Below are positions 14,101-62,273 of a stretch of DNA of 64,000 bases, piece after piece. Below the pieces are notes generated by a model. It worked only from the letters and a program-made list of their open reading frames with translations. It did not search any database and was not told the DNA's origin. The stretch covers positions 15,330,291 through 15,394,290 of the forward strand of contig OZ020515.1 in assembly GCA_963971425.1 (NCBI GenBank), written 5' to 3'. The translations under genes and the position numbers were made by a program. The DNA is from Bryoerythrophyllum caledonicum (lineage: Eukaryota; Streptophyta; Bryopsida; Pottiales; Pottiaceae). Positions within the stretch are counted from its first letter, which is position 1, and every line of letters begins with the position of its first letter.

Positions 14101-14691
14101 AGTCATGTTGTTAAAGATGATACCACTACACAATTAATTGAAAATGAAGAGGTTTTTGACATCCAAAAATGTTTTGTATTCATTTTTACAATAAAAAGAT
14201 TTTTTTAAAATTTAAAAGTTAAATAAATATTATCATGATATCCTTAAGCGTGTAATATCTTCATTGTTTTAGCATAATGAAGACTTAGAGCTGGATAACC
14301 TTCATAATAATGAATCAAAATTAGCAAACATGGCTCAAAAACAAAAGATAATGTTTCAAAAAAAAATGCGACAACTTCAAGAAACGTATCGATTCTATAT
14401 CCAAATCAAATAATTAACTATTTGAATTATAATACATATGATATTCATTATAAATGGTTAAAAAAAATTTATATGACAAGATACATTTGAGTTTTTTAAA
14501 ATTAAAATTTAGGATGCTAATTTATTTATATCTTAAAAGTCATGAAAATTTATAATCATCATAGGACATCATTTGCTACTTTGGATAAAAAATACATCAA
14601 ACCGTTTCTAGCATCAAATGTTCACGATGAAATGGAAACAAATGAATCCAAAGGAGTCATTATGTTAGGTCAATATGGCATGTTTTCTTAA
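8161..14691 (+). CDS. Endosomal-type Na+(K+)/H+ antiporter, NHX5/NHX6-like, 18 exons
   Basis: Cation/proton antiporter (CPA1) of the endosomal NHX/NHE6-7-9 type, exchanging Na+ or K+ for H+ in Golgi/endosome membranes to set lumen pH. Exons by phase and GT-AG signals: 8161-8341, 8615-8663, 8823-8891, 8974-9010, 9219-9304, 9891-10002, 10136-10198, 10699-10718, 10877-10974, 11116-11176, 11812-11920, 12561-12658, 12838-12926, 13563-13655, 13786-13895, 14047-14151, 14273-14385, 14565-14691. They join without a stop into 539 aa, close to the usual length of about 530. Visible motifs: amiloride-type [10 protein letters not shown] (exon 3), [13 protein letters not shown] (exon 6), ion-site FGESVLNDA (exon 7), SETFVFIYMG (exons 12-13) and [14 protein letters not shown] (exon 15), then a charged cytosolic tail. 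Start is the first ATG in the open frame. The exon 3/4 junction is the least certain. Exon 8 is only 20 nt. It appears intact and functional. Confidence 0.9.
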
Positions 14692-18775: not shown

Positions 18776-19590
18776 TTACCTTTTTCTGGCGTGATCTTTC
18801 ATGGTTGAAACAATAGATCTTTTGTTTTCTGTTGTGACATTGGCAACAAGAGTCAAGTTTTTCTCCATTATAGCTTGAACACTCTCGTCTGGATCTGTTT
18901 CATCCTCTTTTTCCTTGGATTCCTGTTCTGTATCCAACACTTTTTTGAACAAAGAGTTCTTCATATGCTCCTCCATTGCTGATGTCTGAAATGCGTTTTG
19001 GAATGCTTGATCTAAGCCACACATGGACCACCCTTTCTTTTTCATGGTTGGTTTGTTGATGTATTGCCATGCATGATATAACCAGCTGCAGATCAAAGGC
19101 TTCAACACCGACATCTTTGTATCCAACTTCACATCATGTAGTTCCTTCTCATCAATCTGCTTGCCAATGTTCTCGCTTGTATATTGGTCAAATTGTTGTC
19201 TGAAACCATGCTTGAATGGACGCTGTAAGATGACATCTGCAGGTTGTAAAACGCTTGTACAATTTCCGGGAACAAAGATGAGTAGGATCTCTCCATGTGT
19301 CTCCTTCAACCAAGAGATAAATTCCTTCGAGATATGGACACTCCAGCAGTCTAAAATCCAAATCAACTTTGATTCTGCATCTAACCCCATCTCTTGCACT
19401 TGTTTTCTTCTGTAGGGCTATAGAATTTCTTCAACAAATTGTTTGCAAGTTGTTAAGTTGCTCCAATGATTGCTAGAGAATGTCAAGTTCCAACCAGCTT
19501 CTTCATACACTTGGCGACCAGCATTTCGAGGAGGAAGACATCTCTTTGTAGATCCTGTAAATACGATTTGAAGAAGTAACAAGTCTCATG
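18776..19590 (-). pseudogene. Pogo/jerky-type DDE transposase, 5'-truncated pseudogene
   Basis: On the minus strand the frame reads LLLLQIVFTGSTKRCLPP, then AGWNLTFSSNHWSNL, a stop near 19420, then KLIWILDCWSVHISKEF, LLIFVPGNCTSVLQPAD and LQRPFKHGFRQQF. This is the C-terminal half of a DDE superfamily endonuclease of the Tc1/mariner-pogo group. The second catalytic Asp (ILDCWSVH) and third (QPAD) are present. The first Asp and the N-terminal DNA-binding domain are missing. The last 207 codons (18776-19399) remain open and end in a charged tail. It is a dead transposon relic. Terminal repeats were not identified. Confidence 0.75.
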
Positions 19591-37053: not shown

Positions 37054-37057
37054 AGTG

Positions 37058-37424
37058 TGTCAGGATCGGCGCATGGAGGTGTTTGTATAGATGGTATTTG
37101 GGTAGAAACCATCTAGAGAGTTGTGGAGTTACCGGAGAGCCCAAGACTTAGCGTTAATGGGAGATTAGGGTTAGGTTTAGTGCCGCGTGGCGGCTAGGGC
37201 AACGGTGGTGTCTTTCGACACCTCATCTCGGGACTTGGAACCCGGGTGACCTCCACGTGTGGTTGAGGGAGACTCATCTTTCTCAAGTTGAGTCTCCCAC
37301 GTGATGAGGTGAAGGTGTGTGCGTGTTGTACATCGTTAGCCTCATCCATATCATGTTTTCACTCTTGAAGAGTGGCATGGACTCGAATTATTGTGATTTG
37401 TGAGTGTTTATCACTTATTTGTTA
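37058..37424 (+). repeat. 5' terminal repeat, segment B (first 367 bp of the LTR)
   Basis: Same length as 48820-49186, with three substitutions by eye (near 37105, 37330 and 37386). It begins TGTCAGGATCGG, directly after the AGTG flank. It contains a perfect 10-bp stem (GGGAGACTCA at 37267-37276 with TGAGTCTCCC at 37289-37298). At 37425 it stops matching the 3' LTR, whose continuation (segment A) is instead found at 48587. Confidence 0.85.
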
Positions 37425-38159
37425 CTTGAGAAAGATCACTACTAGGATATGAGTGTATTCCTAGTGGTTTAGACACACTTAGAACCTCAAAATATTGTGT
37501 TTGAGGTGTTTTTGGAGTCTTGGTGTAGTGCTGATCCGTTGTTGCTAAATCCCAAGCTTGCTTAACTAGATGAATGAATCTCATTAGCTAAGATAAGGGT
37601 GATGGCGATTCTAAGCCAACCACTGTGGATGAAGGTCCGATGACGAGATCTTTTCTGTGAGGATCCGGAAAGGTCGTTACAGAGGACGTCGGGGGACTGA
37701 AGTTGGTGGGATTGTCTGGAGCTTTGTTTTGCTCGAGCATGTCGCTCGCTCATTGTCTGCATTCAATCGTTGTAACCTGGCGTGGGTGAACCAGCACTAC
37801 CAGGAGGTGTGCTATTGGAATGCGCTCTGAGCGTCGCATTCAACGTCGACCGAGTCTTTGAGCGTCGCGCGGTTGTAGTTGAGAAACAGAAGTTGCAAGT
37901 GTGCCGGTGTTTGTGCGCACAACCTGAGTGAGTTGCTGGAGAAGGAGCAGGTGTTTTCAGCTTGCTGCGACAACCAGTCGGGAGTCTTGATTCAGGCGTG
38001 TTGGAGCGCATCAGCAAGCTGGTGAGCAAGCGGGCGTTTCTCGAGAACGTGTCCACGCTCCGCGCGGTGACCGCCCCGGTGAGGAAGTTGCAGCAGGGAA
38101 GAGATGATGGAGATCAAGACTTGGGCCTCTGTCGACGAGAAGGTGTGAAGGTAGAGTCT

Positions 38160-38435
38160 CGGAGTGCTGTGTCGTATGTGGAGAGCCTGGAGGATGCGGA
38201 CGCTAAGGCGATCACTGCCGCAGCCGAGAAGGAGGATAGCGTCACGTTCTACGTGACCGACGACAAGGAAGTGGCTGCGAAGTTTGGTCTGGGAGAGAAG
38301 ACGCCGTCGTTCGTGTTGCTGAAGAAGAAACCCTCGTGCAGAATGCCGAAGATTCGAAGATGCAGGTGACGAGGTGGTTTGGATCAGATTCGGCACTTAC
38401 AAAGCTACAGATCTATTTTGTTGACTTCCCGTAAC
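38160..38435 (+). pseudogene. Protein disulfide isomerase-like (thioredoxin-fold) fragment
   Basis: The frame starting near 38160 reads VSYVESLEDADAKAITAAAE, then KEDSVTFYVTDDKEVAAKFG, then KTPSFVLLKKK. After a -1/+2 shift near 38330 it continues EETLVQNAEDSKMQV. This pattern (a 'fxxSLxdxd...fy.t.d..vA..fgl....P.lVLlKKe' series) resembles the redox-inactive b domain of plant PDI-like proteins. It lacks the CxxC domains, is frameshifted and sits in the retroelement leader. That suggests a host exon captured by the element or by an earlier one. Family assignment by eye only. Confidence 0.5.
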
Positions 38436-40000
38436 TACATTGTTCTATCGAGTAGAGGCTGTTCACCTTGGAGTCGATGCGGTTATGAGTACGACCGGGC
38501 GTAACCAGTAACCCTACTTCCCAATTTTCAAGAGTCGCCGAGACGTGCGGTGCTTCACCAGTGGCTGGCAAGGGCGTAGAAGATTGGTGGTCGTTGACGA
38601 CGGCACTTTTGGTATCCTCCGCCCACTGAAGCTCACAGGAGTGCGAACACGACCTGCACCAAACTCCGTATGACGAGTACCGAACTCACTGCACACCGAA
38701 CTTCCAGTGACGAACACCGAACTCACTGGACACCGAAATTCCAGTGAGGCAGTCGGGCAGCACCCATTTCGGGGCAAACTGTGAGTTTGTTATAGTGAGC
38801 TGGGGATGTGGTGTTAGAGTGGGAACTTAAGTGCCGAAGTTCCACAGAGTGTTGTCGGCATAGAATGAGAATTGCAACGCCGGAGGCACCGTGTGAAGAA
38901 AGGATTCAGGGAGGTCAACTTTGACGCATATTTCTGGACCCGGCATGCGTTCCTCACGGCGTCGGGGCAGTCAGCTCGAGGACGGAGTTGCGAAGGGTGC
39001 CTCCCGAAGTTGTCCAGTCCCTGTGTGTGCCACAGTTATACTACTAGTTGTGTTGGATGAGTAGCACTTTGTATTGAATGTTACCGACACATGATCTTCT
39101 TGCTGTTGGAGCCACCTAGAGGAGCAAGTGCGCATGAGAGCTTAATCACGGATCAATGTGTTTGCGGTGTTCTTTCGTGCTTGTGGAGCATACCAACAAT
39201 AGTTGTGGTAGAATAAAAAGGCGTCGCGACGGTTTGGAGGAGCTGCGGGAAGCAGTCAGGCAAACCTATTAGCGGAAGTCAAGCGCTGTGTGAAGTGTTT
39301 CAAGAGAGAAGCACGGTCGGGTGCCGGAGGATGTTGCCTGTGGTGGTTGCCTTCAAGCTGGAGAAGTGGAGGAGGGCCGGACGTCGACAAGAAGCGACGG
39401 CTGTGCTGCATGCCGTGGACACTGAGGGCGTAGCTTGAAGGAGGATCTCCAATATTGCTGCGGCGTGGGGGAACGGTCTCAAAGAGAGTTCTTCGTTCAC
39501 CGCAATTGGAGTCCAGAGGGCTATGGAGGTGAGTTCCCTCTTCAATTGTGCGTGCATTCCATGGATGTGAGTGTGTTCACTTATGGTGTCTTGTGAAATT
39601 TTCGTGGTGCTTTTGGTGATGCGGAAGCGCTGCCACAATTTTGTTGGAATTGCATATTGCAATTGTGTCAAGGTTGTTCACTTTTCTCCATATGGGAATG
39701 ACACATGCTTGAGCACATGTTAGCTTGTGCACATTTTAGTGCAAGAGTTGCCCGTTTCAAGTGATTTTGATCATTTAGAATTTTAGGGTGTTATCCTAGA
39801 ACTTAATTAGTTCTAGAGAAAGGCCTGCCTCTTGTACGAGGCATTATAAGGCATATATTAAAATTAGGGTTTCCTTTAGGAGTAGCTCGTGGTAGCTATT
39901 CGGAGGCCCAGGACTATTTCAACAAGGTAACGTATCTTGCGTTGGGAGGGGGTAGTCGGGTGCTTGGGGGAGTGACAAGTTTGTATGTTGCATTTTGTTA

Positions 40001-40271
40001 GTAAGTGGTGAAAGTGCGGGAGAGCGGGTGCCATAGTCACCTTCTTCTTGCTCTTCGTCATTCTTGTAAGAGGTGAAGGTGTGGGATAGTGGGTACCATT
40101 GTTGCCCACTTCTTACCCTTGCCAATTTGCTTGTGAGAGTGATTGGAAGAGTTGTGGGATATTCGGTGCCATAGTCACCTTTTTCTTGCACTTTGCCACC
40201 TTTGGGGAGTGACTAGTAGAGGTATGGGATGGTGAGTGACATTGTCGCTTTCCTCTTGTACTTCGGCTAGG
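40001..40271. repeat. Tandem repeat, period about 68 bp, four diverged units
   Basis: Units start near 40001, 40066, 40133 and 40202. Each has 'gtgggatagtgggtgccat' variants followed by 'gtcaccttcttcttgc' variants. They lie just upstream of the first retroelement ORF, the position where packaging or promoter elements often sit. Confidence 0.7.
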
Positions 40272-40495
40272 AATTTGGATTATGGGGATCATGTATGGCT
40301 AGACTTGGGGTTGTTCTCATCAAATTGTTGTGCACACTGTTGATGTGTTGCATCACGTGAGCTAAGTGTGGCATATGATAGTGAACAAGAAGTGAAATTC
40401 TAGCATTCCCCTAATCTAGCATTCCCCTAACATTCATTGTGAGCCCACTTAATACAACCACGTAAAAAGAGTGGGTTGCATTGAGCCTATGGGAC

Positions 40496-41137
40496 ATGGA
40501 TAGTGGAGGTAAGAAGAAGGAATCAAAAGAGTCTAGTGCATCCACGGTAGAGATTAGCACTGAGACCCTTAGTCAATTGATTACTTGCCTCCAAGATTTG
40601 CAAGTTAAATCTTCATCTTCCCAGGCAAGTTCTAGTGGTAGGGATTTTGAGTTATCTCCCATAGCCAAGTCTCGAACCGGGACTCAAGACTTGCGAAAGC
40701 CAGACACGAAGGTGCTAAGCGAAGAGTCCATGAAGTATTGGACTTCACTTGGTGGGGTGCGCAAAGTACGAGCGCTTCGGACCAAGGAGGGTGTTCGAGC
40801 TCCTCTTTGTCGTGCACGAGGCCAAGTTGAAGCCGTGGATCTTGTGGTTGGAGAGAAGGCCGTTGTCCTAAAGAACGTTGGGTCAAGATATACTGTGGAG
40901 GTGGTGGATTTCCGCCGAGGGAACCAATTGCCCACGTTCTCCCTCATCTTCACCGAGTTTGAGAGTGAAGGCTTCGTGTTTCATACTACGTGGCAGTGGG
41001 AAGTGGGTACGTGGCGAGAGCGGGCCAGCAGTGTGTGGGACACACTCACCTTGGAGCTACTCGATTGGGAAGTACCACCCACTATCTACGCTCCAGAGAA
41101 GAAGGGCACTCATGAAGCATGGCGCTTCTTTGATTGA
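40496..41137 (+). CDS. Retroelement leader ORF (Gag N-terminal or accessory protein), about 213 aa
   Basis: ATG at 40496 opens a frame of MDSGGKKKESKESSAS..., a Lys/Ser-rich start, a possible amphipathic helix (LSQLITCLQDLQVKS) and a more globular second half (VEAVDLVVGEKAVVLKNVGS; FHTTWQWEVGTWRERASSVW). No known domain was recognised. It ends TGA at 41135-41137, overlapping by four bases the start of the next open frame, which is in the -1 frame. No canonical slippery heptamer is present at the overlap. It could be the N-terminus of Gag joined by a frameshift mutation, or a separate accessory ORF. Confidence 0.6.
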   Translation: MDSGGKKKESKESSASTVEISTETLSQLITCLQDLQVKSSSSQASSSGRDFELSPIAKSRTGTQDLRKPDTKVLSEESMKYWTSLGGVRKVRALRTKEGVRAPLCRARGQVEAVDLVVGEKAVVLKNVGSRYTVEVVDFRRGNQLPTFSLIFTEFESEGFVFHTTWQWEVGTWRERASSVWDTLTLELLDWEVPPTIYAPEKKGTHEAWRFFD

Positions 41138-41802
41138 GCCAACCAATTCTCAATCTGGAGACGTGGAAGGGGCCCGGTTTCACTCGGAGAAACACCCCAT
41201 TTGCGGTAGGCGTTCGTGAACGAGTGGTGGAGGAAGTTACCACTCAATCGAAGGAAGAGGAGGATATGGTCCAACCGGTATTAGAAGAACGGGAGTTTGT
41301 GGTAGAATCTTTGGTACGTAGTGCAAGTTCCCCACCAAGAAAGCCTTTGCAATCAATTTTTGATTGGGAGGAGATGGCTTCACCATATGGAGGAAGAGGA
41401 GAACGGGGGGTGCGACGATTTTCGGGTGCCACGGACACTATCGAAGCGGATGACTTCAAGAGGGAGTTCACTATGTGGTGTGAACTCCAGAAGTCTTGCA
41501 ACCCCAACTTCAACCCTTACATGGTGTGGAGGGCGTTATTTGGATGTCTGGAGGGAGCCCCGTTAGCGGATTATGGAGAATTCGAGGCGGCTCATCTCAC
41601 GGAGATATTGGCATGGAGGGATTTCTATGCACCAAATTACGCGGATGTATTCGGCGGAGCGCCGAGTGTTCCATCACGTGTGGGAAAGGGGAAGCAGGAG
41701 GAGGGCACGAGTAGTGCCGAGGACTTGAGCCAACCGATGGAAACGGTGGCTATTCCACCTCCGTTGAACCCTACGGCCGTATTCTTCACACAGATCCGTT
41801 GA
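41134..41802 (+). CDS. Gag, N-terminal part (capsid-like region)
   Basis: Open from 41134, with no ATG until 41266. It is helical and charged, with DDFKREFTMWCELQKSC and HLTEILAWRDFYAPNYADVF, consistent with a Gag capsid-type region. It ends at TGA 41800-41802, but the same frame continues at once (DYQGQWADKMKALRSFARGG) into the next ORF, so the stop lies inside Gag. A single C-to-T change of CGA at a CpG site would produce it. It is therefore probably an inactivating mutation and not a true end. Confidence 0.7.
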   Translation: MSQPILNLETWKGPGFTRRNTPFAVGVRERVVEEVTTQSKEEEDMVQPVLEEREFVVESLVRSASSPPRKPLQSIFDWEEMASPYGGRGERGVRRFSGATDTIEADDFKREFTMWCELQKSCNPNFNPYMVWRALFGCLEGAPLADYGEFEAAHLTEILAWRDFYAPNYADVFGGAPSVPSRVGKGKQEEGTSSAEDLSQPMETVAIPPPLNPTAVFFTQIR

Positions 41803-44676
41803 GACTATCAAGGTCAATGGGCGGATAAGATGAAGGCATTGAGGTCTTTTGCGCGAGGAGGAGATGAGTCCTTGCGAGAAGCTCATGCGAGATTGCGGAG
41901 ACTGATTTCTGCTACTCACGGAGTCACGGAGCAGCAAGCGGTGCAGCACTGGTACAGCATCTTAGAGAAGGAGGTGAAGACATTAGTTCGCAATGAGGCA
42001 TTGCGATTGGGTGAGCCACCGACTTTGAGACTTGTGTTTGAGACTTCGGAGAGAATTGAGATCAATTTATTGGAGAAGAAAGCGGCCATGGGATTTCTCA
42101 AACGTGAAGAGAAGATTCCTGAAAAGGTCAAGGTGGCCAAGGCTTCGGTTCCCTCCTATGCCACCGACACTGAAGCATTATGCTTTAGTTGTGGCAAATC
42201 GGGGCATTTGAGGAAGGATTGCAAGGAAAGCAAGTCCTCTACCCCTCAAATTGGTGGCTACTGCTCTGGTTGTGGTGCCAAGGGGCATTCCGAGGCTAAG
42301 TGTTGGAAGCTTCACCCCGAATTGAAGCCTTCTGGAGGCAAGAGAGCCAAGGCAGGCAACAAGGAGAAGGAGTCCAAGTCTTCGGGAGGAGACAAGAAAG
42401 GTTGGAAGGCCAAATTCGCGGAGTTGGAGGCCAAGATGGCGGCCATGAGCGCGAATGCTGCTTCAGTGAGTGAAAAGCCTCAAGTCACTCCTAGTTTTCA
42501 TGCTGGGGGCGGGTTTAGCCCCGAAGACGACGAATTCGGGGACTATATGCTAAGTGGCATGGCACTTGCTATCACGGATGGCTCACGGGAGGCTTATGCC
42601 CTTACACGGAGTCAAACACCGGTGACCAAGGAGGTTTCACGTGGAGCAAGTCCAACCTTGGATCCTCAACATGGGAAGGACAACCGGCAAGCTCGATTGC
42701 CCGAGTCTTTCACGTTGGAGGAGATGGTGCCAACATCTTCCATGGTGCCTCCAACGCGTCGGGGGGTGCCAACTACTCGCCCTAGCGTTGGGATTGTAGA
42801 GCCATCTAGTACGGTGGTGAGAGAAGCGGCAAACGTGCTTTGTAAGGCTTCACTATTTTCTGCTAAATTGATGTCACAAGAGGGCTTCAATGCAGCGGCG
42901 GTCTTCAAGATGGCGGCTCAAATGTGTGAGTCCGGTGACTCCACGGGCGTCAATGCGTTGAAGACGGAAGTGATTGAAGGAGAGGTGGATAAGAGTCAAG
43001 AAGACAACGTGGAGGGGCTGCTTTCAGCAGCCATGCGTGTCAAGACCATGGCCGCCAGACCTGCAATCGAGAGGTCATCCATTACACCTGGTGTGGTGGT
43101 GGTTGACAACTTCCAGGGGATTTTCCAACTTGTTGGGCCCAAGGGGAGGGTATTTGTGCCTCGACGAGTGCTTTTGGATTCAGGAGCTCAACCATTGATG
43201 CTGGGAGCATCTGCCCGTGAGGGGTTGGGTTTGACTGGGGACACTTTGGAGAAGTATCCATGGACAATTAGCACTTCCATGGGGGGTACGGAGCATGCTA
43301 CAGGCATCACAAAGGAGGAGTTGATTTTACGACTCAACGAAGATGATGTCGAGGATGCAAGCTTTATGAAGGTGAAAGCTATAGTATCGGAGGCCAAGTC
43401 ATACGATGTCTTGGTAGACTCGGCGGTGCTATACCCCATGGGGTTCACCTTGGATTTCTGGGAGGAAACCGCAAGTTATAGACCAGGATGGCAAGCAGGA
43501 GATGGGCAGAAGGCTCAGCTGCCAGCTCGTTTTATTCGAGTTCTGACTGGCAATCTTGCAGACGTGTTTGCCTTCTCAGGAGGTATGGATGTGGAACCAT
43601 CATGGTTTCACAAGGGTTGTGATACTTTCTCGATGGATACTCCTACACTTCACGAGATGGATGCCCAAGTGGGTGACACAAGTGGTGGAGATACAGAGAC
43701 GTATCAACCTGGCATAGAAGCAGCGTGGAGGACCACGACTCAACTTCAGAAGGATGCGGCACAGGTCATTGAAGATGCTTGGCAGCATTCGATACTCCCA
43801 CAACCGGAAGATGATTCTCGAGTGGACCAAGACTTGGGCCCACGTCTAGACAGTTCCACCATTCAGTGGAAGGTACCAGAGGATGGTATTGTGTTGTTGG
43901 AGTTGTTCGGAGGGATTGGAAGTGGCTTGGCGGCAGTGCTGCAAGCAGGGATGAAGGTCAAACGCTACATCTACGTAGATGTTGATGAGGCAACAAGGCA
44001 CGTGGCTAAGCGGCATTCACGGCGATTGAGGACCCAATTTCCAAACTTGTTGGCCACTAGTGCCATCAAGACTTCGTTTTCTACTCTTGTTGGTGATATT
44101 GCTTTGCTTTCAGCAGAGGATATTCAACGTGTTGGCCATGTGGACCTTGTCATCGCGGGATGGCCATGTCAAGGATTGTCAATGGCTGGACATCAAAACG
44201 GGTTGAAAGACACTCGTTCTTCGCGGTTTCATAATATGATTCGGGTATTGTCTTTGCTTCAAACCTCTCAGAAGCGACCACCAGGTTACATTGTGGAGAA
44301 TGTACCAGTGATGAGTAGCTCGAGGTCGAGGACATTAGAGGGCATGCACCGCATACACCAGACTCTGGGTATGCCCGTATTGTTGGATGCAGCTGCGGTG
44401 GGATCGCGAGCACATCGCCCGCGATTATGGTGGACGAATTTAGCACCTCAAGAGTTGTTACAGTCCGCTGTGGGTCGAATTAAACGGCCGGATGTCTATG
44501 TGAGTGATATTTTGGATCCTCACAGGGCACCGCGGCGCGTTTATCATGACGACCAAGCACCTTTGGCGGTCGTCAACCGTAAAGGAGAACCACGTAGGGC
44601 ACTGCCCACGTTGGTTAGTTTTGCTCGGTCGTATGCCTTTAAGGATAACGGCCCGGGTCTTGTGTGGGATTCCTAG
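41803..44676 (+). CDS. Gag nucleocapsid - aspartic protease - DNA cytosine-5 methyltransferase
   Basis: Same frame as the preceding Gag part, first ATG 41830. Numbering from that ATG: zinc knuckles C118-FS-C121-GKSG-H126-LRKD-C131 and C145-SG-C148-GAKG-H153-SEAK-C158. A linker with EKESKSSGG and an A/M-rich helix follows. The protease active site is LLDSGAQP (D450, S451, G452). A C5-methyltransferase fills about 685-948: motif I VLLELFGGIGSG (688-699), motif II YVDVDEATRH, motif IV AGWPCQGLSM with catalytic C780, motif VI VENVPVM (E823, N824), and motif VIII SRAHRPRLWWTN (R863, R865). It ends at TAG 44674-44676, before motifs IX-X, which continue in frame. Motif order is not circularly permuted, so it is not DRM-like. 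It would methylate DNA cytosines if expressed whole. Confidence 0.9.
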   Translation, partial: DYQGQWADKMKALRSFARGGDESLREAHARLRRLISATHGVTEQQAVQHWYSILEKEVKTLVRNEALRLGEPPTLRLVFETSERIEINLLEKKAAMGFLKREEKIPEKVKVAKASVPSYATDTEALCFSCGKSGHLRKDCKESKSSTPQIGGYCSGCGAKGHSEAKCWKLHPELKPSGGKRAKAGNKEKESKSSGGDKKGWKAKFAELEAKMAAMSANAASVSEKPQVTPSFHAGGGFSPEDDEFGDYMLSGMALAITDGSREAYALTRSQTPVTKEVSRGASPTLDPQHGKDNRQARLPESFTLEEMVPTSSMVPPTRRGVPTTRPSVGIVEPSSTVVREAANVLCKASLFSAKLMSQEGFNAAAVFKMAAQMCESGDSTGVNALKTEVIEGEVDKSQEDNVEGLLSAAMRVKTMAARPAIERSSITPGVVVVDNFQGIFQLVGPKGRVFVPRRVLLDSGAQPLMLGASAREGLGLTGDTLEKYPWTISTSMGGTEHATGITKEELILRLNEDDVEDASFMKVKAIVSEAKSYDVLVDSAVLYPMGFTLDFWEETASYRPGWQAGDGQKAQLPARFIRVLTGNLADVFAFSGGMDVEPSWFHKGCDTFSMDTPTLHEMDAQVGDTSGGDTETYQPGIEAAWRTTTQLQKDAAQVIEDAWQHSILPQPEDDSRVDQDLGPRLDSSTIQWKVPEDGIVLLELFGGIGSGLAAVLQAGMKVKRYIYVDVDEATRHVAKRHSRRLRTQFPNLLATSAIKTSFSTLVGDIALLSAEDIQRVGHVDLVIAGWPCQGLSMAGHQNGLKDTRSSRFHNMIRVLSLLQTSQKRPPGYIVENVPVMSSSRSRTLEGMHRIHQTLGMPVLLDAAAVGSRAHRPRLWWTNLAPQELLQSAVGRIKRPDVYVSDILDPHRAPRRVYHDDQAPLAVVNRKGEPRRALPTLVSFARSYAFKDNGPGLVWDS

Positions 44677-45231
44677 TCTCAAGAGATGGTGGAGCCTAAT
44701 GCGGATGAACGGGAGAGAGCCATGGGATTTTCCACGGGCACTACCGATGTGCCCGGGATCTCGGAGCAACAACGGCGATTTTTACTTGGACAAGCGATGG
44801 ACTTAAATTGCTTGACGTGGATCGTTTCGTTGCTAGTGGCAGAACAGAAGCGGTTGGCTTCTAGTTTTACTGGTTACATGGGGTCTTATGAGTTGCGGGC
44901 GGCCGGAGAACCATTTGTCTCTATCAAGGTGACAGGCAAAGTGGTTGGGGGCGAGAAGGCCTTGACACCTCACCCATGGAACATGAGGGGCTCCGCGAAT
45001 CTTTTCGCGACACTGAAGACTGAGGATCATCTTCATGGAGTGAAAGATGGAAGCCGAAGTAGGGGATTGGCCCACCAAACGAAGGATTTGGAGGAGACTG
45101 TGGAGAATATGTTCGTGGGAGAACACACAGCTCAGCAAAGGGAGACAATTGGCAAACTAAGCCAATTGGAAGGACTTGGAGGCTTGGTAGATGTGGAGGG
45201 AGAAGAGTCTCCTTCGCATGGCATCCAATAG
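44677..45231 (+). CDS. Methyltransferase C-terminus and linker (in-frame continuation)
   Basis: In phase with the preceding ORF across TAG 44674. From ATG 44686 it reads NADERERAMGFSTGTTDVPG and RRFLLGQAMDLNCLTWIVSL. These are the C-terminal part of the target-recognition region and motif X (the usual xxGNxV reads LLGQAM). They complete the fold of the enzyme whose first nine-tenths lie upstream. About 120 hydrophilic linker residues follow (including LEETVENMF and IGKLSQLEGLGG). It ends at TAG 45229-45231 in the context CAA TAG CAA CCA, followed in frame by the RT ORF. That context matches the CAR-YYA readthrough signal known from tobamoviruses. Confidence 0.8.
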   Translation, partial: SQEMVEPNADERERAMGFSTGTTDVPGISEQQRRFLLGQAMDLNCLTWIVSLLVAEQKRLASSFTGYMGSYELRAAGEPFVSIKVTGKVVGGEKALTPHPWNMRGSANLFATLKTEDHLHGVKDGSRSRGLAHQTKDLEETVENMFVGEHTAQQRETIGKLSQLEGLGGLVDVEGEESPSHGIQ

Positions 45232-45237
45232 CAACCA
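45229..45237 (+). promoter_or_regulatory. Candidate leaky stop: TAG CAA CCA
   Basis: The stop between the methyltransferase part and the RT part reads CAA TAG CAA CCA. UAG followed by CAR-YYA is the established plant/tobamovirus stop-codon readthrough signal. The frame is open on both sides, so suppression would yield a Gag-PR-MTase-Pol fusion. The other two in-frame stops lack this context. Confidence 0.55.
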
Positions 45238-45276
45238 AGGAAGGAGAATCTTGCTCCAAAGGAACCGAAGGAGGCG

Positions 45277-48200
45277 ATGACCAAGGATACTTGGAAACCG
45301 ATGGTAGGCCTGGCGGATGGAGCAGTTGAGAAAGAGGAACATGAGTTCCTCAGGGAGTACTTAGATTGTTTTGCCTTTAGTCTTGAAGATCTTGGAGTAT
45401 TGAAGGGGCAAGAAGTACATATCAATTTGACGGACAAAGCAACAATATACCGGAAGCCGTACAAGTATAGCGACGTTGAACGGAGGATGATATGTACTCG
45501 TACGGAGGAGTTAGTGGCTGCGGGGCTAGTGCAGTTGGCTCCACCGGATTGCGAGTATGCATCGGCGACGGTTATGCCATCCAAGAAAGATATCTACGGT
45601 AATTGGACCGAGAAGAGGATGTGCGGGGACTATAGGAGGATTAACAAATTCACCAAGTCGGATCGTTATGCGATGCCAACGCCGGAGGAGAACTTTGAGG
45701 CTATTGGTCACGCCAAGGTATTTAGTACGTTGGACTTGCGCTCTGGATACCACCAGATTGGACTGAGAGACGAAGACAAGGAGAAGACCGCGTTCTGGGG
45801 CATTGACAAAGATGGAAAGGACCGGTTGTTCCAATGGAAATTCTTACCATTTGGATTGAAGAATGCTCCTGCCGAATTCCAGAGGGTTATGGACCGAGTA
45901 TTCTCGGGCTTGGATTTCGTGAGATGCTACATTGACGACATCGTTGTCTTTAGCACGAATCGAAGGCAACATAGGCTACACTTGATGGAAGTGTTTGCTA
46001 GATTGAGGCTCCACGGTTTGAAGTTGCATCCTGATAAGTGCAAATTCTACTTTGACCGCATCGAGTACTTAGGCCACATGATATATCCAAGTGGATTGGG
46101 TGTGGTAGCTAGTAAAATTGAAGTAGTGATGTCTATTCCTAGACCAAAGGATATTAGTAGGCTACGTGCATTCTTGGGGTTGTGTAATTACTATACAAAG
46201 TTTGTGAAGACTTTCAATGCTATTGCCAAGCCATTAACCATGTTGACAAGGAATGATCAACCTTGGATATGGGGAGATGAGCAAGAGGTAGCCTTTCAAG
46301 AGTTGAAGGACCGCTTGGCATCGGCACCTATATTTCGAAGGCCAATAGCCGGAAGGACATACCAGCTACACACAGATTGGAGCGCATTGGGAATTGGTGC
46401 GGTGTTGACGCAAATGGATGACAACGGGAAGGAGTTTGTCATTGCGTACGCCAGCTGGTCCAACAATAATGCGGAGGCCCAGTATAGCTCGTATGAAGGG
46501 GAGTGTTTGACTGCCATATGGGCAATTGCTCATTTTCGATGTTACCTTTATGGTAACGAGTTCTTGTTAGTCACGGATCATCAACTTTTAAAGTGGTTGA
46601 TGGAGTCTGACAAACTAACAGGCAAGCTAGCGCGGTGGGCCTTGATGTTGATGGAATACGACTTCAAGGTGGTGCACAGAGCGGGATTGGTGAATATGGA
46701 TGCCGACAGCCTTAGCCGCAATCCAATTCCAAACCAAGCGGATGCTACGGGCGCTAGGTGGCACGGGGAGGATGAAGCCGATCCGTTGCCAGGTTGGCAT
46801 TGTTCGGCCTTTCTAAGTGTATTGGCAATGCGTGGAGATGACACCGGAGCTTCTACTGTGGCCACGGTAGATGAGGATGGCGGTGAAGAATCTGGGGGCG
46901 CCAAAGACATCTTTGAAGACACGAACGTGATGCATTTTCTGAAGAATGGAGAAATGGTGCCTACGTGGTCCGCTAAGGAGAGAGATCGGGTCTCACAACG
47001 AGCCAAACGGTTCGTGTGGGAGAGGACTCACCTTTTGAGGGTGTGGCCGGATAGCACGCGGAAGGTTGTTCCAACTCCATTGGAGAGAGTGAAGCTCATC
47101 AAGGACACGCATGAAGACCTTGGGCACTTTGGAGTGCGGAGGACTTATAGCTTGCTTCAGCTTCACTATTGGTGGCGAGGAATGCAAACTCAAGTTCAAG
47201 CCTTGGTAGCCCGGTGTATGGTTTGTGATCGGGTACAAGCGTCTTTTAACGCTCCGATGCCACAATTGCAACCATTGCCAATTATGGGCTTGGGATATAG
47301 GTGGAGCTTAGATTTTGCTGGTCCATTGCCAATGACACCTCGACACAATAAGTATGTGTTGGTGATGATCGAGCACTTCTCGAAATGGATAGAATTGGTA
47401 GCGTTGCCTGACAAGTTTAGTGAGGGGGCCGCTTACTCTTTCGTTGATCGTGTGTTGAGTCGCTTTGGAGCTCCAGCGGAAGTTCTCACAGACCAAGGAA
47501 GGGAATTCTTGGGTGAGTTTCAAACGTTGTGCGAGCAAGCGATGATAGATCACCGCACTACTTCGAGGGATCATCCCGAAGCGGATGGATTGGCGGAGCG
47601 CATGGTGCAAACCGTCAAGAGGGGGCTTCGGAAGTATAGTTTGAAGAAGGGACATCATCAAGATTGGGACTTGCAATTACCGTGGATAGCCATGGGCTAC
47701 CGGTTTAGCAAGCAAGCATCTTTGGCGTCCTTTTCTCCTTACTTCTTGTTGTTTGGAAGGCAACCGGTGTTACCGAAGGCCATTCAGGCAGATGCTGACA
47801 CCGTGTTGGCTAACATGGACAATCCAGATACGTGGGCTCAAATGTGTGAGCAACGTGCGGATTTGTTCAAACGGGTGATGCCTATGGCATTGGAGAATCT
47901 TTCCATTGCTCAACATCGGGATACATTGCGTTATGCTACAATACGGGGAGGAGGCTACCGACCGCAAGTGCGACGGTTTACTCCTGGAGACTATGTGTAT
48001 TTACAGCAAGCAGCACCCACCACCTTGGATGTGACAGCGGGACGGGTGATCTTGCGAGTTCGTGAAGTGAAGAACTCAGGAGTGTTACTGTTGGAGGGTC
48101 GTGATGGTAAAATATGGAAGGATCATACGCGCAATTGCGCTCCTTGCCATTTACCATACATTGATGGAACGGTAAACCCTGGTACTTCTCACATCTCTTC

Positions 48201-48357
48201 TGGATTGCGATGTCAATTGTGTGGTAGTGCCAAACGGGCAGCCACAATGGTCATTTGTGACTTGGGTTCTACGGGGTGGCATCTAGAATGTCTAACCCCA
48301 CCTCTTCTAGAGGTACCAGTGGGTCAATGGTCATGTCCAAATTGTTTAGCACATTAA
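45277..48357 (+). CDS. Pol: reverse transcriptase - RNase H - integrase - PHD-like finger
   Basis: 1026 codons, intact, in the same frame as Gag; the frame is already open from 45232. RT: MCGDYRRINKFTKSDRYAMP, STLDLRSGYHQIGL, LPFGLKNAPAEFQ and catalytic YIDD (218-221). RNase H: D367 (HTDWS), E407/E409, D434 (VTDHQ) and D477 (ADSLSR). Integrase: zinc ligands H612, H617, C647, C650; catalytic D679 (WSLDFAGPL), D739 (LTDQGREF) and E774 (LAERMV). A chromodomain would be usual in many plant gypsy elements. Here the C-terminus (about 979-1023) reads C979-x2-C982, C994-D, H1002-x2-C1005, then a PPLLEVPVGQWSCPNC end. That is a PHD-type finger with the fourth ligand (normally Cys near 997) replaced by Gly. 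It replicates and inserts the element, and the finger may read histone tails to guide insertion (inference). Confidence 0.95.
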   Translation: MTKDTWKPMVGLADGAVEKEEHEFLREYLDCFAFSLEDLGVLKGQEVHINLTDKATIYRKPYKYSDVERRMICTRTEELVAAGLVQLAPPDCEYASATVMPSKKDIYGNWTEKRMCGDYRRINKFTKSDRYAMPTPEENFEAIGHAKVFSTLDLRSGYHQIGLRDEDKEKTAFWGIDKDGKDRLFQWKFLPFGLKNAPAEFQRVMDRVFSGLDFVRCYIDDIVVFSTNRRQHRLHLMEVFARLRLHGLKLHPDKCKFYFDRIEYLGHMIYPSGLGVVASKIEVVMSIPRPKDISRLRAFLGLCNYYTKFVKTFNAIAKPLTMLTRNDQPWIWGDEQEVAFQELKDRLASAPIFRRPIAGRTYQLHTDWSALGIGAVLTQMDDNGKEFVIAYASWSNNNAEAQYSSYEGECLTAIWAIAHFRCYLYGNEFLLVTDHQLLKWLMESDKLTGKLARWALMLMEYDFKVVHRAGLVNMDADSLSRNPIPNQADATGARWHGEDEADPLPGWHCSAFLSVLAMRGDDTGASTVATVDEDGGEESGGAKDIFEDTNVMHFLKNGEMVPTWSAKERDRVSQRAKRFVWERTHLLRVWPDSTRKVVPTPLERVKLIKDTHEDLGHFGVRRTYSLLQLHYWWRGMQTQVQALVARCMVCDRVQASFNAPMPQLQPLPIMGLGYRWSLDFAGPLPMTPRHNKYVLVMIEHFSKWIELVALPDKFSEGAAYSFVDRVLSRFGAPAEVLTDQGREFLGEFQTLCEQAMIDHRTTSRDHPEADGLAERMVQTVKRGLRKYSLKKGHHQDWDLQLPWIAMGYRFSKQASLASFSPYFLLFGRQPVLPKAIQADADTVLANMDNPDTWAQMCEQRADLFKRVMPMALENLSIAQHRDTLRYATIRGGGYRPQVRRFTPGDYVYLQQAAPTTLDVTAGRVILRVREVKNSGVLLLEGRDGKIWKDHTRNCAPCHLPYIDGTVNPGTSHISSGLRCQLCGSAKRAATMVICDLGSTGWHLECLTPPLLEVPVGQWSCPNCLAH

Positions 48358-48586
48358 GAGTCTACGTAGATAAGGTCTAGCCATTAAAAGTGTTAGAGGC
48401 GATTAACGATGGGGCTCTCATTGCACCCGGCCTATCCTTTGTCTACACGGTCTATTAGTGTCTTTTCTATAGGTCACCTTGATTTTTCTGGACTTGAGAG
48501 GTTTTCATGCTCGGTCGTTCATACACTTTACGTTAATTGTGTGGTTCGCTGGTGTGCAAGGGGCTTCAGCACAGGCGAAGGGGGCG
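48358..48586. other. 3' untranslated part of the retroelement with purine-rich tract
   Basis: Non-coding. It ends in the purine-rich gaagggggcgagtaaagggg (48577-48596), a plausible polypurine tract for plus-strand priming. It overlaps the start of segment A at 48587. Confidence 0.5.
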
Positions 48587-48817
48587 AGTAAAGGGGTCCT
48601 TGCAGACCAATTACTAAATGTTATGGTCTGGGTATTTATTTCTTTTTCCCTAGCCTAGGTTGTTGGAGGTTGATAGTTTCTTTTGTGAACTATTGTTTTC
48701 GTTGTTTACGGAGGCAACGGTGATAGTATAGTCACCATTGCTCCGAGTTTGCCTCTAATTGTGCGCTCTCACCTGTTGGCACGATGTTATCTTTGCACGA
48801 TGTATTTGTGCACGACA
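48587..48817 (+). repeat. Segment A: displaced 3' part of an LTR (231 bp)
   Basis: Identical by eye to 49186-49416, the last 231 bp of the complete 3' LTR. It ends GACA, followed by CC and then TGTC of the next LTR, an LTR-end to LTR-start junction like that of a two-LTR circle. It begins exactly at the LTR position where the 5' copy (37424) breaks off. Confidence 0.85.
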
Positions 48818-48819
48818 CC

Positions 48820-49416
48820 TGTCAGGATCGGCGCATGGAGGTGTTTGTATAGATGGTATTTGGATAGAAACCATCTAGAGAGTTGTGGAGTTACCGGAGA
48901 GCCCAAGACTTAGCGTTAATGGGAGATTAGGGTTAGGTTTAGTGCCGCGTGGCGGCTAGGGCAACGGTGGTGTCTTTCGACACCTCATCTCGGGACTTGG
49001 AACCCGGGTGACCTCCACGTGTGGTTGAGGGAGACTCATCTTTCTCAAGTTGAGTCTCCCACGTGATGAGGTGAAGGTGTGTGCGTGTTGCACATCGTTA
49101 GCCTCATCCATATCATGTTTTCACTCTTGAAGAGTGGCATGGACTCGACTTATTGTGATTTGTGAGTGTTTATCACTTATTTGTTAGTAAAGGGGTCCTT
49201 GCAGACCAATTACTAAATGTTATGGTCTGGGTATTTATTTCTTTTTCCCTAGCCTAGGTTGTTGGAGGTTGATAGTTTCTTTTGTGAACTATTGTTTTCG
49301 TTGTTTACGGAGGCAACGGTGATAGTATAGTCACCATTGCTCCGAGTTTGCCTCTAATTGTGCGCTCTCACCTGTTGGCACGATGTTATCTTTGCACGAT
49401 GTATTTGTGCACGACA
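48820..49416 (+). repeat. Complete 3' LTR, 597 bp (segments B + A)
   Basis: It runs from TGTCAGGATCGG to GTGCACGACA, with 5'-TGTC...GACA-3' inverted ends. It is followed by AGTG, the same four bases that precede 37058. The first 367 bp match 37058-37424, and the last 231 bp (sharing one base) match 48587-48817. Confidence 0.85.
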
Positions 49417-49420
49417 AGTG

Positions 49421-59859: not shown

Positions 59860-60616
59860 CATGTAGGATCTCAATTAAGACTTATTAAATAACGTCCTTA
59901 AAATTTCTCAGAAAACTTTGACTACACGGATTGAAATATTATAGTGTTTGAAGTAGAGAAAATCATTCATTATCTTCCTTGCATTGAGTGGATCAACAAA
60001 CTTTGACTTCACCTGGGTGTGAAAATCTTGCACTGCTCAAGGTCTAAATTCATTACCATTGTGTTAATCATGATGTTATTTTATTGTGCACAAATTTTTA
60101 GAGGTAGAGAAGGGTTGTAGTATGTTCAAGAAAAACTGTGTAAGGAGTGGAGGTTCAAAAATTGCCAATTCATGTTTTATTTTACTGTGAACTGAATATG
60201 TTATGGGATGAGAATCCAAATTGTCAATAAGAAGTTTTCCACCACATCTTGTAGTAGAAAAAATAAAGTGTACTACATATGAAGGTCTTTAAGTTTTATG
60301 AAGAAAAGAGGAATCTTTTTTGGTACCTTGCCCGACAAAGTGTGACAATGTATGAATATGTTTGACTTGGGTTAGTGTGCTATTTTTCACTAAAGACAAG
60401 AAATGTTTTTTGACAATATGATAGGAAATAATAATATTTGCTATCATTGAAAATCTCACATTTGATAGAGTGTTCAAGCAAAAGTATCGTAGTTGCTTGA
60501 CGTGCCCGCTTTCTCCATTTGAAATTCAAAACCCTGTAACTTTTTCAATAAATGTTGGATTTAGGAAAATTGTACTCACATGAAGCATTTGTTAATGTCC
60601 ATCTACAATAGAAATA
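59860..60616. repeat. Single arm of the TTAA palindromic family
   Basis: Closely follows the order of blocks in 4130-4920 and 60700-61240: 'cggattgaaatattatagtg', 'tagaggtagagaagggt' and 'gtgtgacaatgt' in turn. It ends where the intact copy begins at TTAA 60617. Confidence 0.6.
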
Positions 60617-62273
60617 TTAACCCCTAAAGGAGTCCACTTTCGCTCTAAAACCAGTCCAAAACTGCCACTGCCAAAAAAAGACATGAAAATCACATTTTAA
60701 AGTGAATTTTGGATTTTCAACCGTAAGATCTTAAAATAGACTTCCATATAAACATGCTATTAAATTTTGGTTGTAATCCACCGCACGGATTGATAGATTT
60801 TAGTGTATAAAGTCAAAACAATGGTTCATTTTCTTCCCTGCGTTGAGTAGATCAGCTGACTTTGACTTCACTTTGTATCAAATTTTTGCATTGTACAAGG
60901 TCTAAATCTTTTACCATTGTCTTAAGCATGATGTTATTTCCCAACAGACCAATTTTTAGAGGTAAAAAAGGGGTGTAGCATATTCAAAACAAGTGTGCAA
61001 GGAGTGGAGGTTCAAAAATTGCCATTTCACATTTTTTTTTTGGTGAACTACGTATGTATTTAAATGATAATCCAAACGGTCAATAAGAAGGTTTTCACCA
61101 CATATTGTTGTTGAAAAAATAAAAAGTGAAAAATATGAAGATCTCTAGGTTTTATGTAGAAAAGATGAAGTTTTTTCCCCCGTTGCCCGACAATGTGTGA
61201 AAATGTTTGACTTGGAATAAAATGCCTTTTTATACTAAAGATAAGATTTTTTTTTAAATTTCCAAAAAAGGAAATATTCTTTATATGTGAAATACCTCAA
61301 TGTCAATAGAAACTTTGTCAAAAAATTTGGAGGCTCGAACCTTTAACCCCTAAAGGACCAAACGTCCCCCCGGGGTCATTTTGGATTTTGGGCATGTACC
61401 TACAATTCGAAAAAAATCCTTTTTAATTGAATTTTTTTTTCAAGATAGGATCTGATAAGAGCTTCGTGGAGATATATTTTTATTCTTTTTTGGATTTGTG
61501 GTTTGAAAGTTAGTACCACTTAAAGCCAAAAGTGGGACTTCGGGCACCTCCAAAAATTTTGACAAAAGTTTCTATTGACATTGAGATTTTTCACACATAT
61601 AAAGAATATTTCCCTATTTAGAAATTTTGAAGAAAAAATCTCGTCTTTACTGTAAAAAGGCATTTTATTCCAAGTCAAACATTTTCACACATTGTCGGGC
61701 AACGGGGGAAAAAACTTCATCTTTTCTACATAAAACCTAGAGATCTTCATATTTTTCACTTTTTATTTTTTCAACAACAATATGTGGTGAAAACCTTCTT
61801 ATTTACTGTTTGGATTATCATTTAAATACATACGTAGTTCACAAAAAAATAAAATGTGAAATGACAATTTTTGAACCTCCACTCCTTGCACACTTGTTTT
61901 GAATATGCTACACCCCTTTTTTACCTCTAAAAATTGGTCTGTTGGGAAATAACATCATGCTTAAGACAATGGTAAAAGATTTAGACCTTGTACAATGCAA
62001 AAATTTGATACAAAGTGAAGTCAAAGTCAGCTGATCTACTCAACGCAGGGAAGAAAATGAACCATTGTTTTGACTTTATACACTAAAATCTATCAATCCG
62101 TGCGATGGATTACAACCAAAATTTGATAGCATGTTTATATGGAAGTCTATTTTAAGATCTTACGGTTGAAAATCCAAAATTGACTTTAAAATGTGGTTTT
62201 CATGTCTCTTTTTGACAATGACGGTTTTGGACTGGTTTTAGAGTGAAATAGGTCGTGGTCCTTTAGGGGTTAA
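60617..62273. mobile_element. Intact palindromic (foldback) element with TTAA target duplication
   Basis: 60621-62269 is flanked by TTAA on both sides (60617-60620, 62270-62273). It starts CCCCTAAAGGA and ends with a matching TCCTTTAGGGG. Arms of about 0.7 kb (60621 to about 61333 and about 61549 to 62269) are near-perfect inverted copies, for example 'gtagcatattcaaaacaagt' at 60976 against 'acttgttttgaatatgctac' at 61892. The 0.2-kb centre starts with another TTAACCCCTAAAGGACC (61344). TTAA targets and CCC-type ends recall piggyBac elements. It has no coding capacity. Confidence 0.8.

Follow-up and report, generated by a model that had tools for sequence, protein, structure and literature searches.

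The window, a stretch of 64,000 nt, contains a Ty3/gypsy-like element on the forward strand at 37058-49416, which holds a Dnmt3-type C5 cytosine methyltransferase (MTase) (Table 1). A Pfam scan of this copy revealed the order Gag-protease-RT-RNase H-integrase, with a Ty3-type RT, a DDE integrase and the MTase as an insertion. The MTase shares its register with Gag (PF00098), a weak protease match (PF13650), RT, RNase H and integrase. In relatives P0021, P0050 and P0055, the protease domain carries a precomputed PF13650 or PF13975 match. A PHD finger follows the integrase, which adds a domain to those of the preliminary description; a PDB search matched it to many different PHD proteins. The DDE integrase core was found in place of the tyrosine recombinase of DIRS/PAT elements, and the five frames scanned of the window element gave no Pfam match to a tyrosine recombinase. 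Three in-frame stops, at 41800, 44674 and 45229, interrupt 41134-48357. The first two are premature and the third is a conserved feature of the family. Of the 20 fetched copies, nine share the 1041-codon ORF2 frame of the window, and L031 has one of 1047 codons. As a whole, the locus is probably best explained as one decayed member of a high-copy Ty3/gypsy-like retrotransposon family, probably of a moss. The plastid accD on contig C894 of this assembly has 96% identity to a cluster labelled Timmiella anomala, a moss; of five contig starts read, three have CCCTAAA repeats and two consist of N.

Table 1. Features of the element in the window.
Feature	Position	Strand	Basis or remark
Target-site duplication AGTG, left	37054-37057	.	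AGTG abuts both element ends
Repeat A1, 367 nt, left end, starts TGTC	37058-37424	+	99.2% identical to A2 (48820-49186)
Putative self-primer ATCTTTCTCAAGT, in hairpin inside A1	37276-37288	+	13-nt perfect complement of 37424-37436
Putative primer-binding site ACTTGAGAAAGAT, A1/internal border	37424-37436	+	Pairs with 37276-37288
Gag region, two zinc-knuckle-like motifs, ends approximate	41374-42300	+	PF00098 at 42181-42228; start codon read from sequence
Premature stop TGA in Gag region, window copy	41800-41802	+	Reading frames
Aspartyl protease region (LLDSGAQPL), ends approximate	43150-43480	+	PF13650, E = 0.011, below Pfam cut-off
Dnmt3-type C5 cytosine methyltransferase domain	43861-44880	+	Pfam, motifs, structure match
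Premature stop TAG in MTase, window copy	44674-44676	+	Reading frames
Conserved readthrough-type stop TAG CAA CCA (UAG CAR YYA), MTase/RT border	45229-45237	+	Junction comparison across copies
ORF2	45232-48357	+	Pfam; 1041-codon frame
RT in ORF2	45607-46083	+	Pfam
RNase H in ORF2	46354-46659	+	Pfam
Integrase H2C2 and core in ORF2	47083-47577	+	Pfam
PHD finger in ORF2	48211-48345	+	Pfam
Purine-rich tract GGCGAAGGGGGCG, putative polypurine tract, just 5′ of B1	48574-48586	+	L016 and L024 identical; L031 G-rich
Repeat B1, 231 nt, ends GACA	48587-48817	+	Identical to B2
Repeat A2, starts TGTC, 2 nt after B1	48820-49186	+	Repeat comparison
Repeat B2, right end, ends GACA	49186-49416	+	Repeat comparison
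Target-site duplication AGTG, right	49417-49420	.	Abuts element end

In the preliminary description, a C5-MTase was placed after the protease and before the RT of a Ty3/gypsy element, and a DNA_methylase profile search was named as a check. This search bore out the assignment: residues 750-866 of the frame 41830-44676 matched PF00145 (E = 3e-13, 50.3 bits, cut-off 22). The normal motif order also held. Motifs I (LELFGGIGSG, from 43897), IV (GWPCQG), VI (ENV) and VIII (RLWWTN) lie before the premature stop, and IX (ERERAMGF) and X (LLGQAMDLN) after it, in canonical, unrearranged order; the numbering follows the C5-MTase literature. In DRM methyltransferases, motifs VI-X precede I-IV, and the order in the window copy rules out DRM membership. 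Among solved structures, the MTase was nearest to DNMT3A/B. On the strength of motif order and nearest structures, the enzyme is evidently of Dnmt3 type.

PCQ and ENV were present in all 19 located copies. In an alignment of 24 relatives, drawn from land plants, green algae and other sources, 28 columns were invariant, including the motif-IV cysteine and the motif-VI glutamate. Both findings argue against an MTase that merely accompanies Gag in a structural or nucleic-acid-binding capacity and needs no catalysis, or that is kept for RNA methylation; we consider this very unlikely, although RNA methylation was proposed for SymbioLINE-Dnmt (PMC5890265). A selection test on fetched copies indicated purifying selection on the MTase comparable to that on Gag and protease, in copies picked for long open frames, with dS near saturation and pairs of unmeasurable dS excluded from the mean. 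The sample comprised 18 of 20 copies for ORF1 (without L020 and L032) and 10 of 20 for ORF2.

Among 1865 first-look candidates there were at least 147 close MTase copies; all 147 scored places matched the window MTase at 83-100% identity. In the searched part, 95 were stop-free and 52 had a stop. The MTase and RT frames were both kept around the same junction in 19 of 20 copies fetched, the exception being L020, which carries a deletion at this point. Because of these matches and shared junctions, the presence of the MTase in the element is evidently neither chance nor a one-off. The top of the PF00145 search (C14/L014) was a bacterial-looking full-length MTase near a transposase-like frame, and was excluded from the element counts. 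The CpG observed/expected ratio was 0.77 in the coding part of the element and 0.69 elsewhere in the window, which points in neither direction. The singleton C-to-T rate per site was higher at CG and CHG than at CHH in subfamily A and showed no clear difference in A′, in alignments of doubtful quality.

According to the preliminary description, the MTase is in frame with Gag, protease, RT and integrase. The common register was upheld, but the frame is broken by the three stops, and the conserved one splits MTase from RT. The window stop has the tobacco-mosaic-virus readthrough context, and TAG followed by CARYYA was found at 54 of 57 junctions. The UAG CAR YYA type is known from plant viruses, and an in-frame stop is bypassed for a downstream product in SIRE1, Tca2, MuLV and a candidate case, rice RIRE2 (PMC2194720, PMC2754532). 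In those retroelements the stop lies between Gag and Pol or between Pol and Env, whereas here it splits Gag-protease-MTase from RT-integrase. The stop at 45229 is probably leaky; CARYYA gives the context and not the efficiency of readthrough. As read from the frames, the one upstream of UAG runs from Gag through protease and closes with the MTase. Since a conserved readthrough-type UAG lies upstream of RT, the MTase belongs on the Gag side, and a single Pol frame is an incomplete description.

A fixed accident at 45229, with ORF2 made through internal initiation, from a spliced RNA or from a transcript of its own, seems most improbable. TAG and CARYYA persist even though the 120 nt on each side of the junction share only ~41-50% identity (aligned columns) between distant subfamilies, and the junction comparison across copies revealed no conserved start codon for ORF2. 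An accident would fit relatives P0054, P0057 and P0060, whose single unbroken frame has no stop at the MTase/RT border, and copy L021, in which CAG occupies the stop codon position and the frame is open through the junction. It would also fit Marchantia models P0011 and P0047, which reach RT without the junction region, possibly through true introns.

For Klebsormidium, a gypsy element that combines a Dnmt3 enzyme with split repeats of the type seen here is already in print (PMC5890265), and the moss element is a further variant. That element, KnitGypsy-Dnmt3 of Klebsormidium nitens (de Mendoza et al. 2018, PMC5890265), shares the Ty3/gypsy protein domains, a Dnmt3-type MTase within the element, DIRS-like A-coding-B-A-B repeats and purifying selection on the MTase. 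The moss element thus has both marks of the KnitGypsy-Dnmt3 kind, a Dnmt3-type MTase in a gypsy polyprotein and A-coding-B-A-B repeats. Compared by description, the element here differs in its probable moss host, the Gag-side MTase before a readthrough-type UAG and the integrase PHD finger, and 4-bp target duplications and a putative self-primer are described for it. PMC5890265 puts the KnitGypsy-Dnmt3 DNMT in the Pol ORF, and neither a stop of this kind nor a target duplication is mentioned for that element in the main text. No protein named K. nitens was among the protein-database matches of the MTase family. The dinoflagellate elements SymbioDIRS-Dnmt3 and SymbioLINE-Dnmt likewise have an MTase inside a retroelement, with split repeats in the DIRS type, but are tyrosine-recombinase or LINE elements, in contrast to the DDE-integrase gypsy-like element here (PMC5890265). 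PAT/DIRS elements share the A1-B1-A2-B2 layout, and DIRS elements have a putative methyltransferase domain (PMC4157794); they use a tyrosine recombinase, whereas we found a DDE integrase and 4-bp duplications.

The published cases that we found of gypsy elements with their own DNA MTase are from algae only. The earlier view of a land-plant copy as a notable extension agrees with PMC5890265 and PMC6338049, but is tempered by the MTase proteins of Marchantia, Calypogeia and Sphagnum already in databases. Database relatives come from these liverworts (Marchantia, Calypogeia), Sphagnum, Closterium and the green algae Chromochloris and Haematococcus (e.g., P0003, P0004, P0028, P0060, P0041 and P0043); they belong to the same MTase family, and many have Gag or Pol domains. 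The MTase tree held 53 rows with a match of at least ~290 model positions; shorter or split matches were dropped, and the two Sphagnum proteins, with split matches, were not placed. Liverwort proteins fell in the window's own clade. Chlorophyte-type elements, in which the MTase follows RNase H and precedes integrase, formed their own clade (100/99). Haematococcus gene model P0042, which is outside the tree, has the MTase after the protease. The single frame of Closterium P0060 gave no PHD match. The RT and integrase trees comprised 11 and 12 rows, respectively, and an MTase-less control is absent from both. Viral contigs contained 51 loci with 21-46% identical MTases, which were set aside.

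Cytosine methylation of DNA is the likely role of the MTase in the element cycle. The enzyme is probably a standing part of the family, made at the Gag level, packaged and methylating the element's own cDNA. Because the readthrough-type stop puts it at the level of the coat protein, we lean slightly toward cDNA in the particle as its main target. Most ribosomes would halt at UAG and yield Gag-protease-MTase, and a minority would read through and yield the full fusion. The MTase would be built into the virus-like particle and would methylate the double-stranded cDNA ahead of insertion by the integrase. The new copy would then arrive pre-methylated, probably at CG, going by the SymbioDIRS enzymes that were assayed; the SymbioDIRS MTase showed CG de novo activity in yeast (PMC5890265). 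Pre-methylation may protect the cDNA against attack by the host, or may allow entry to silent chromatin without harm to the host. Self-methylation may serve for hiding or for keeping a chromatin state. Several points weigh against packaged self-methylation: KnitGypsy-Dnmt3, the nearest relative in print, showed no activity in yeast, in a test judged inconclusive (PMC5890265); the window copy is broken, as are the copies with a stop in the searched part; the three relatives named above lack the junction stop; the selection test has the limits given with it; and the MTase could act on genomic DNA after release from the polyprotein, or on RNA.

It is unlikely that the MTase works chiefly in trans, methylating host or element chromatin such as promoters or rival elements once the particle has opened, instead of the element's own cDNA. 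With 147 scored places in one genome, 95 of them stop-free in the searched part, MTase gene dosage could be high. The PHD finger at the integrase end suggests that the element may handle chromatin, and host-wide effects were discussed for Symbiodinium (PMC5890265). However, the Gag-side position predicts packaging and not a free nuclear enzyme, and K. nitens, with fewer such elements, has a land-plant-like methylome (PMC5890265). The readthrough-type stop offers a concrete and cheap prediction of why the MTase is kept, and mosses and Marchantia are laboratory plants in which its role is testable. The silencing of transposons through cytosine methylation is central to plant genomics; here, in contrast, the methylating enzyme is encoded by an abundant transposon and maintained under selection.

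The element ends in A-coding-B-A-B split direct repeats with TGTC...GACA termini and 4-bp target duplications. A reading as ordinary 367-nt LTRs at both ends was abandoned once the B-A-B arrangement was seen. Two identical direct LTRs are not found at the ends: the left end has A only and the right end B-A-B, so the element is gypsy-like by its proteins and not by its ends. The same 3′ arrangement occurred in 15 of 20 copies from three subfamilies, and A1 equals A2 and B1 equals B2 in L016. Flush 4-bp duplications were present in all four A-coding-B-A-B copies examined, and 4-bp duplications in all seven copies examined of both forms, the second being A-coding-B (L021, L025 and L033). To our knowledge, DIRS elements make no target duplication. 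The shared arrangement and flush duplications indicate that the permuted unit itself was inserted, and the integrated copies look circularly permuted. It is therefore rather unlikely that A-coding-B-A-B arose from rearranged ordinary LTR copies and A-coding-B from B1-B2 recombination, with no unusual replication, although such recombination would yield exactly the form of L021, L025 and L033 with target duplications kept.

A tentative alternative is that an ordinary gypsy-type cDNA with a B-A LTR unit is circularised, methylated by the Gag-packaged Dnmt3 enzyme and inserted by the DDE integrase from a GACA-NN-TGTC circle junction. Self-priming would start directly after A, and the plus strand from the G-rich tract directly before B; the cDNA ends would be joined into a circle, and the integrase would cut the internal GACA-NN-TGTC junction. 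Both integrated forms fit the opening of two-unit and one-unit circles at this junction. Against such circles, two-unit circles cut at random should also give an A-B-A-coding-B form, which was not seen among the copies, and A-coding-B is also explicable by B1-B2 recombination. Integration from a circle junction was put forward in 1984 for a retrovirus, a model that was subsequently given up (PMC11054761). The permuted ends together with a DDE integrase reopen the question of retroelement insertion from circular DNA; if circles are indeed used, this would be a case of retroelement integration from a circle junction.

A standard tRNA-iMet primer site next to A1 was not found in the window or in L127; the best sites had 3 of 12 mismatches at position 1751 from A1 (window) and 2 at 1786 (L127). 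In Tf1-like self-primed elements, the 5′ part of the element's own RNA pairs with a primer-binding site that follows the 5′ repeat; here, the putative pairing spans 13 nt. A perfect pairing of this length was reached by none of 500 shuffles. Subfamily B has a covarying pair, and two compensatory changes distinguish subfamilies. The hairpin that holds the putative self-primer had a predicted energy of -20.5 kcal/mol (z -4.9).

A Pfam scan of the window copy revealed a DNA_methylase match (E=3e-13) and a CCHC knuckle in the frame at 41830-44676. The frame at 45277-48357 matched RT, two RNase H models, the integrase zinc-binding domain, the integrase core and a PHD finger. The closest solved PHDs to this finger were of many kinds. 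The cytosine-5 methyltransferase (MTase) that the preliminary description had placed between protease (PR) and RT, with an HMM search of the translated region as its check, was thus borne out at good coordinates, with its motifs in canonical order. That description had also put all domains in one frame; the frames from Gag to PHD do share a single register, but they are interrupted by in-frame stops at 41800, 44674 and 45229. The MTase is a real, abundant and selected feature of the element, which is a variant of the kind represented by KnitGypsy-Dnmt3 of Klebsormidium nitens.

Features of the window copy
Feature	Position	Strand	Remark
Repeat A1	37058-37424		
MTase domain	43861-44880	+	motifs I, IV, VI, VIII, IX and X, canonical order
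Repeat B1	48587-48817		
Repeat A2	48820-49186		
Repeat B2	49186-49416		

The 437-Mb assembly, in which the window sits in a 40-Mb contig, was searched with the window's MTase as query. Further copies, for which a genome check had been suggested earlier, were found: each of the 147 places scored, out of 1865 initial candidates, was 83-100% identical to the query. The matched part was stop-free in 95 of them and contained at least one stop in 52. A PF00145 family search scored 123 places, including a divergent subfamily B and one bacterial-looking MTase; both copy counts are lower bounds. Twenty copies, picked for long frames, were fetched for analysis. Between subfamilies A and A', the MTase had mean dN 0.071 and mean dS 1.70, a ratio of ~0.04 (63 pairs). 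The ratio was 0.04 for Gag and 0.09 for PR, 0.02 for RT and integrase (20 pairs each), and 0.15-0.39, above that of the MTase, for the linkers and the tail after it. These values are rough, dS being near saturation and pairs with unmeasurable dS being excluded; the ranking is nevertheless clear, and on these substitution patterns the MTase is kept by selection and the linkers are not.

In the fetched copies, the Gag-PR-MTase frame of ~1360 codons closed with TAG, and the RT-to-PHD frame followed in register (1041 codons where intact, 1047 in copy L031). The junction was present in 19 of the 20 copies, L020 having a deletion there. The junction codon was TAG in 18 of these 19, and the next six bases were CAACCA, or CAATCA in subfamily B, in all 19. 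In L021, a natural copy, the sense codon CAG replaces the readthrough-type stop and leaves a single frame of 1710 codons. As a sample less tied to long frames, we read 301-base pieces at the expected junction of 40 further PF00145-search places, 20 of A/A' type (mostly next best) and 20 within the profile range of subfamily B. Three (L086, L107, L124) showed no homology at that place. The other 37 all had TAG, followed by CARYYA in 35; L096 and L097 differed in the last codon. L122, of subfamily C, had TAG CAACTA, with a further stop soon downstream. When all junctions were pooled with that of the window, TAG was found in 56 of 57, TAG plus CARYYA in 54, and the hexamer regardless of the preceding codon in 55. 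As controls, CARYYA followed 1 of 169 other in-frame stops of the fetched copies (counted without screening for frameshifts); among the window's TAGs it followed 3 of 921 on the + strand, a count that includes the junction, and 2 of 852 on the - strand. Identity over the 120 bases on each side of the junction was ~41-50% between distant subfamilies (aligned columns only); A and A' were closer there (87 and 101 of 120). An extract of PMC2754532 calls CAR YYA after UAG essential to TMV readthrough and gives 32% readthrough for the TMV construct in tobacco. No conserved ATG was observed near the start of the second frame, the first M being residue 16 in the window copy, 24 in L024, 82 in L016 and 117 in L031. 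On the simplest reading, readthrough would yield the RT-integrase part, and the MTase would be produced at the level of Gag.

Two protein searches revealed MTase relatives in Marchantia, Calypogeia, Sphagnum, Closterium, Chromochloris, Haematococcus and others, many of which also bear Gag, protease, RT or integrase domains. In an MTase tree of 53 rows, the window's family, liverwort proteins and subfamily B formed a group of 36 (support 95/83). Of its 28 database proteins, 23 end 54-139 residues beyond the MTase (exceptions: P0001, P0011, P0023, P0047, P0053), as a shared stop would predict; these end points may in part reflect contig ends or gene models. A second group held 8 rows (support 100/99). 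Its MTase lies between RNase H and integrase in P0036, P0040, P0041 and P0056; RT precedes it in P0032, integrase follows it without RT between in P0034 and P0039, and P0031 has no visible context. RT (11 rows) and integrase (12 rows) trees likewise separated the two placements. P0042, a Haematococcus gene model not placed in the tree, runs against a neat split, having its MTase after the protease; in P0043 of the same species it comes after RNase H. P0054, P0057 and P0060 are single unbroken frames with the MTase ahead of RT.

The 3' side of the 20 fetched copies read B-A-B in 15, B alone in three (L021, L025, L033) and neither in two (L022, L026); in the three subfamily B copies the fetched piece stopped shortly after the second B began, and of these L031 was extended to the full repeat. 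Both ends were read in seven copies, of which the window copy, L016, L024 and L031 were A-coding-B-A-B and L021, L025 and L033 were A-coding-B. All seven started with TGTC, ended with GACA and had a 4-bp flanking duplication (AGTG, CCTC, AGGA and GTGC in the former class; CCGT, AGCT and AACT in the latter). The A-coding-B-A-B layout is common to the window's element and KnitGypsy-Dnmt3, for which a figure legend gives the same repeats (PMC5890265). A1 and A2 were identical in L016 and L024, so these insertions look recent; in the window copy, 3 of 367 positions differed between A1 and A2 and none of 231 between B1 and B2.

At the A1/internal border, ACTTGAGAAAGAT is perfectly complementary over 13 bases to a site at A position 219. 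In subfamily B the corresponding pair, ACTTGACAAAGAC and its complement, differs from it by two compensatory changes. Pairing of this length arose in 0, 0, 0 and 1 of 500 shuffles of A. The putative self-primer site sits within a strong hairpin, and a G-rich tract lies directly 5' of B1. Both the self-primer and the tract agree with a reading in which the reverse-transcribed LTR unit would be B-A and the integrated ends would fall at the B|A junction inside it. The element would then be circularly permuted between reverse transcription and the integrated form, its ends presumably being joined before integration. No A-B-A-coding-B form occurred among the copies seen, which counts against random opening of two-unit circles.

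In the literature searched by title and abstract, no MTase-bearing retroelement was found reported from a land plant; every supplement and most subscription papers were outside reach, and an earlier report may exist. PMC12344493, in extract, gives streptophytes and dinoflagellates as hosts of such elements, and the main text of PMC6317226, a reference survey on LTR elements of plants, has neither the word methyltransferase nor PHD. To judge from these searches, three points are new: the spread in land plants, the placing of the MTase on the Gag side of a conserved readthrough-type stop, and the dissection of the ends.

CCCTAAA repeats were found at three of the five contig starts read, the other two being N. 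The assembly has three plastid rbcL places, and contigs C894, C590 and C821 (L142, L141, L140) hold two different rbcL-accD regions. The accD beside rbcL of C894 shared 96% identity with a 236-member cluster that carries the name Timmiella anomala, a moss of Pottiales; the next matches, Sphagnum and liverworts among them, reached 86% or less. Because the second plastid (C821) differs, the sample may come from two plants, the second probably being mixed into the assembly; we infer that the chromosomes are those of the moss. A bacterial-looking stretch within a chromosome-size contig (L014, G000:C14:16013000-16020000), with a full-length bacterial-type C5 MTase, a transposase-like frame and a masked-base run, is likely misassembled contamination or a transfer. 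In the window, a frame at 18776-19417 (-) resembles a transposase fragment of the DDE superfamily (pogo/jerky type). The two window ends (4114-5726 and 59899-62273) have in common several diverged repeats of ~400-730 bp, some inverted and some direct, which are probably another repeat family. Positions 8001-16000 are strongly AT-rich (22-27% GC, versus ~50% in the retroelement).
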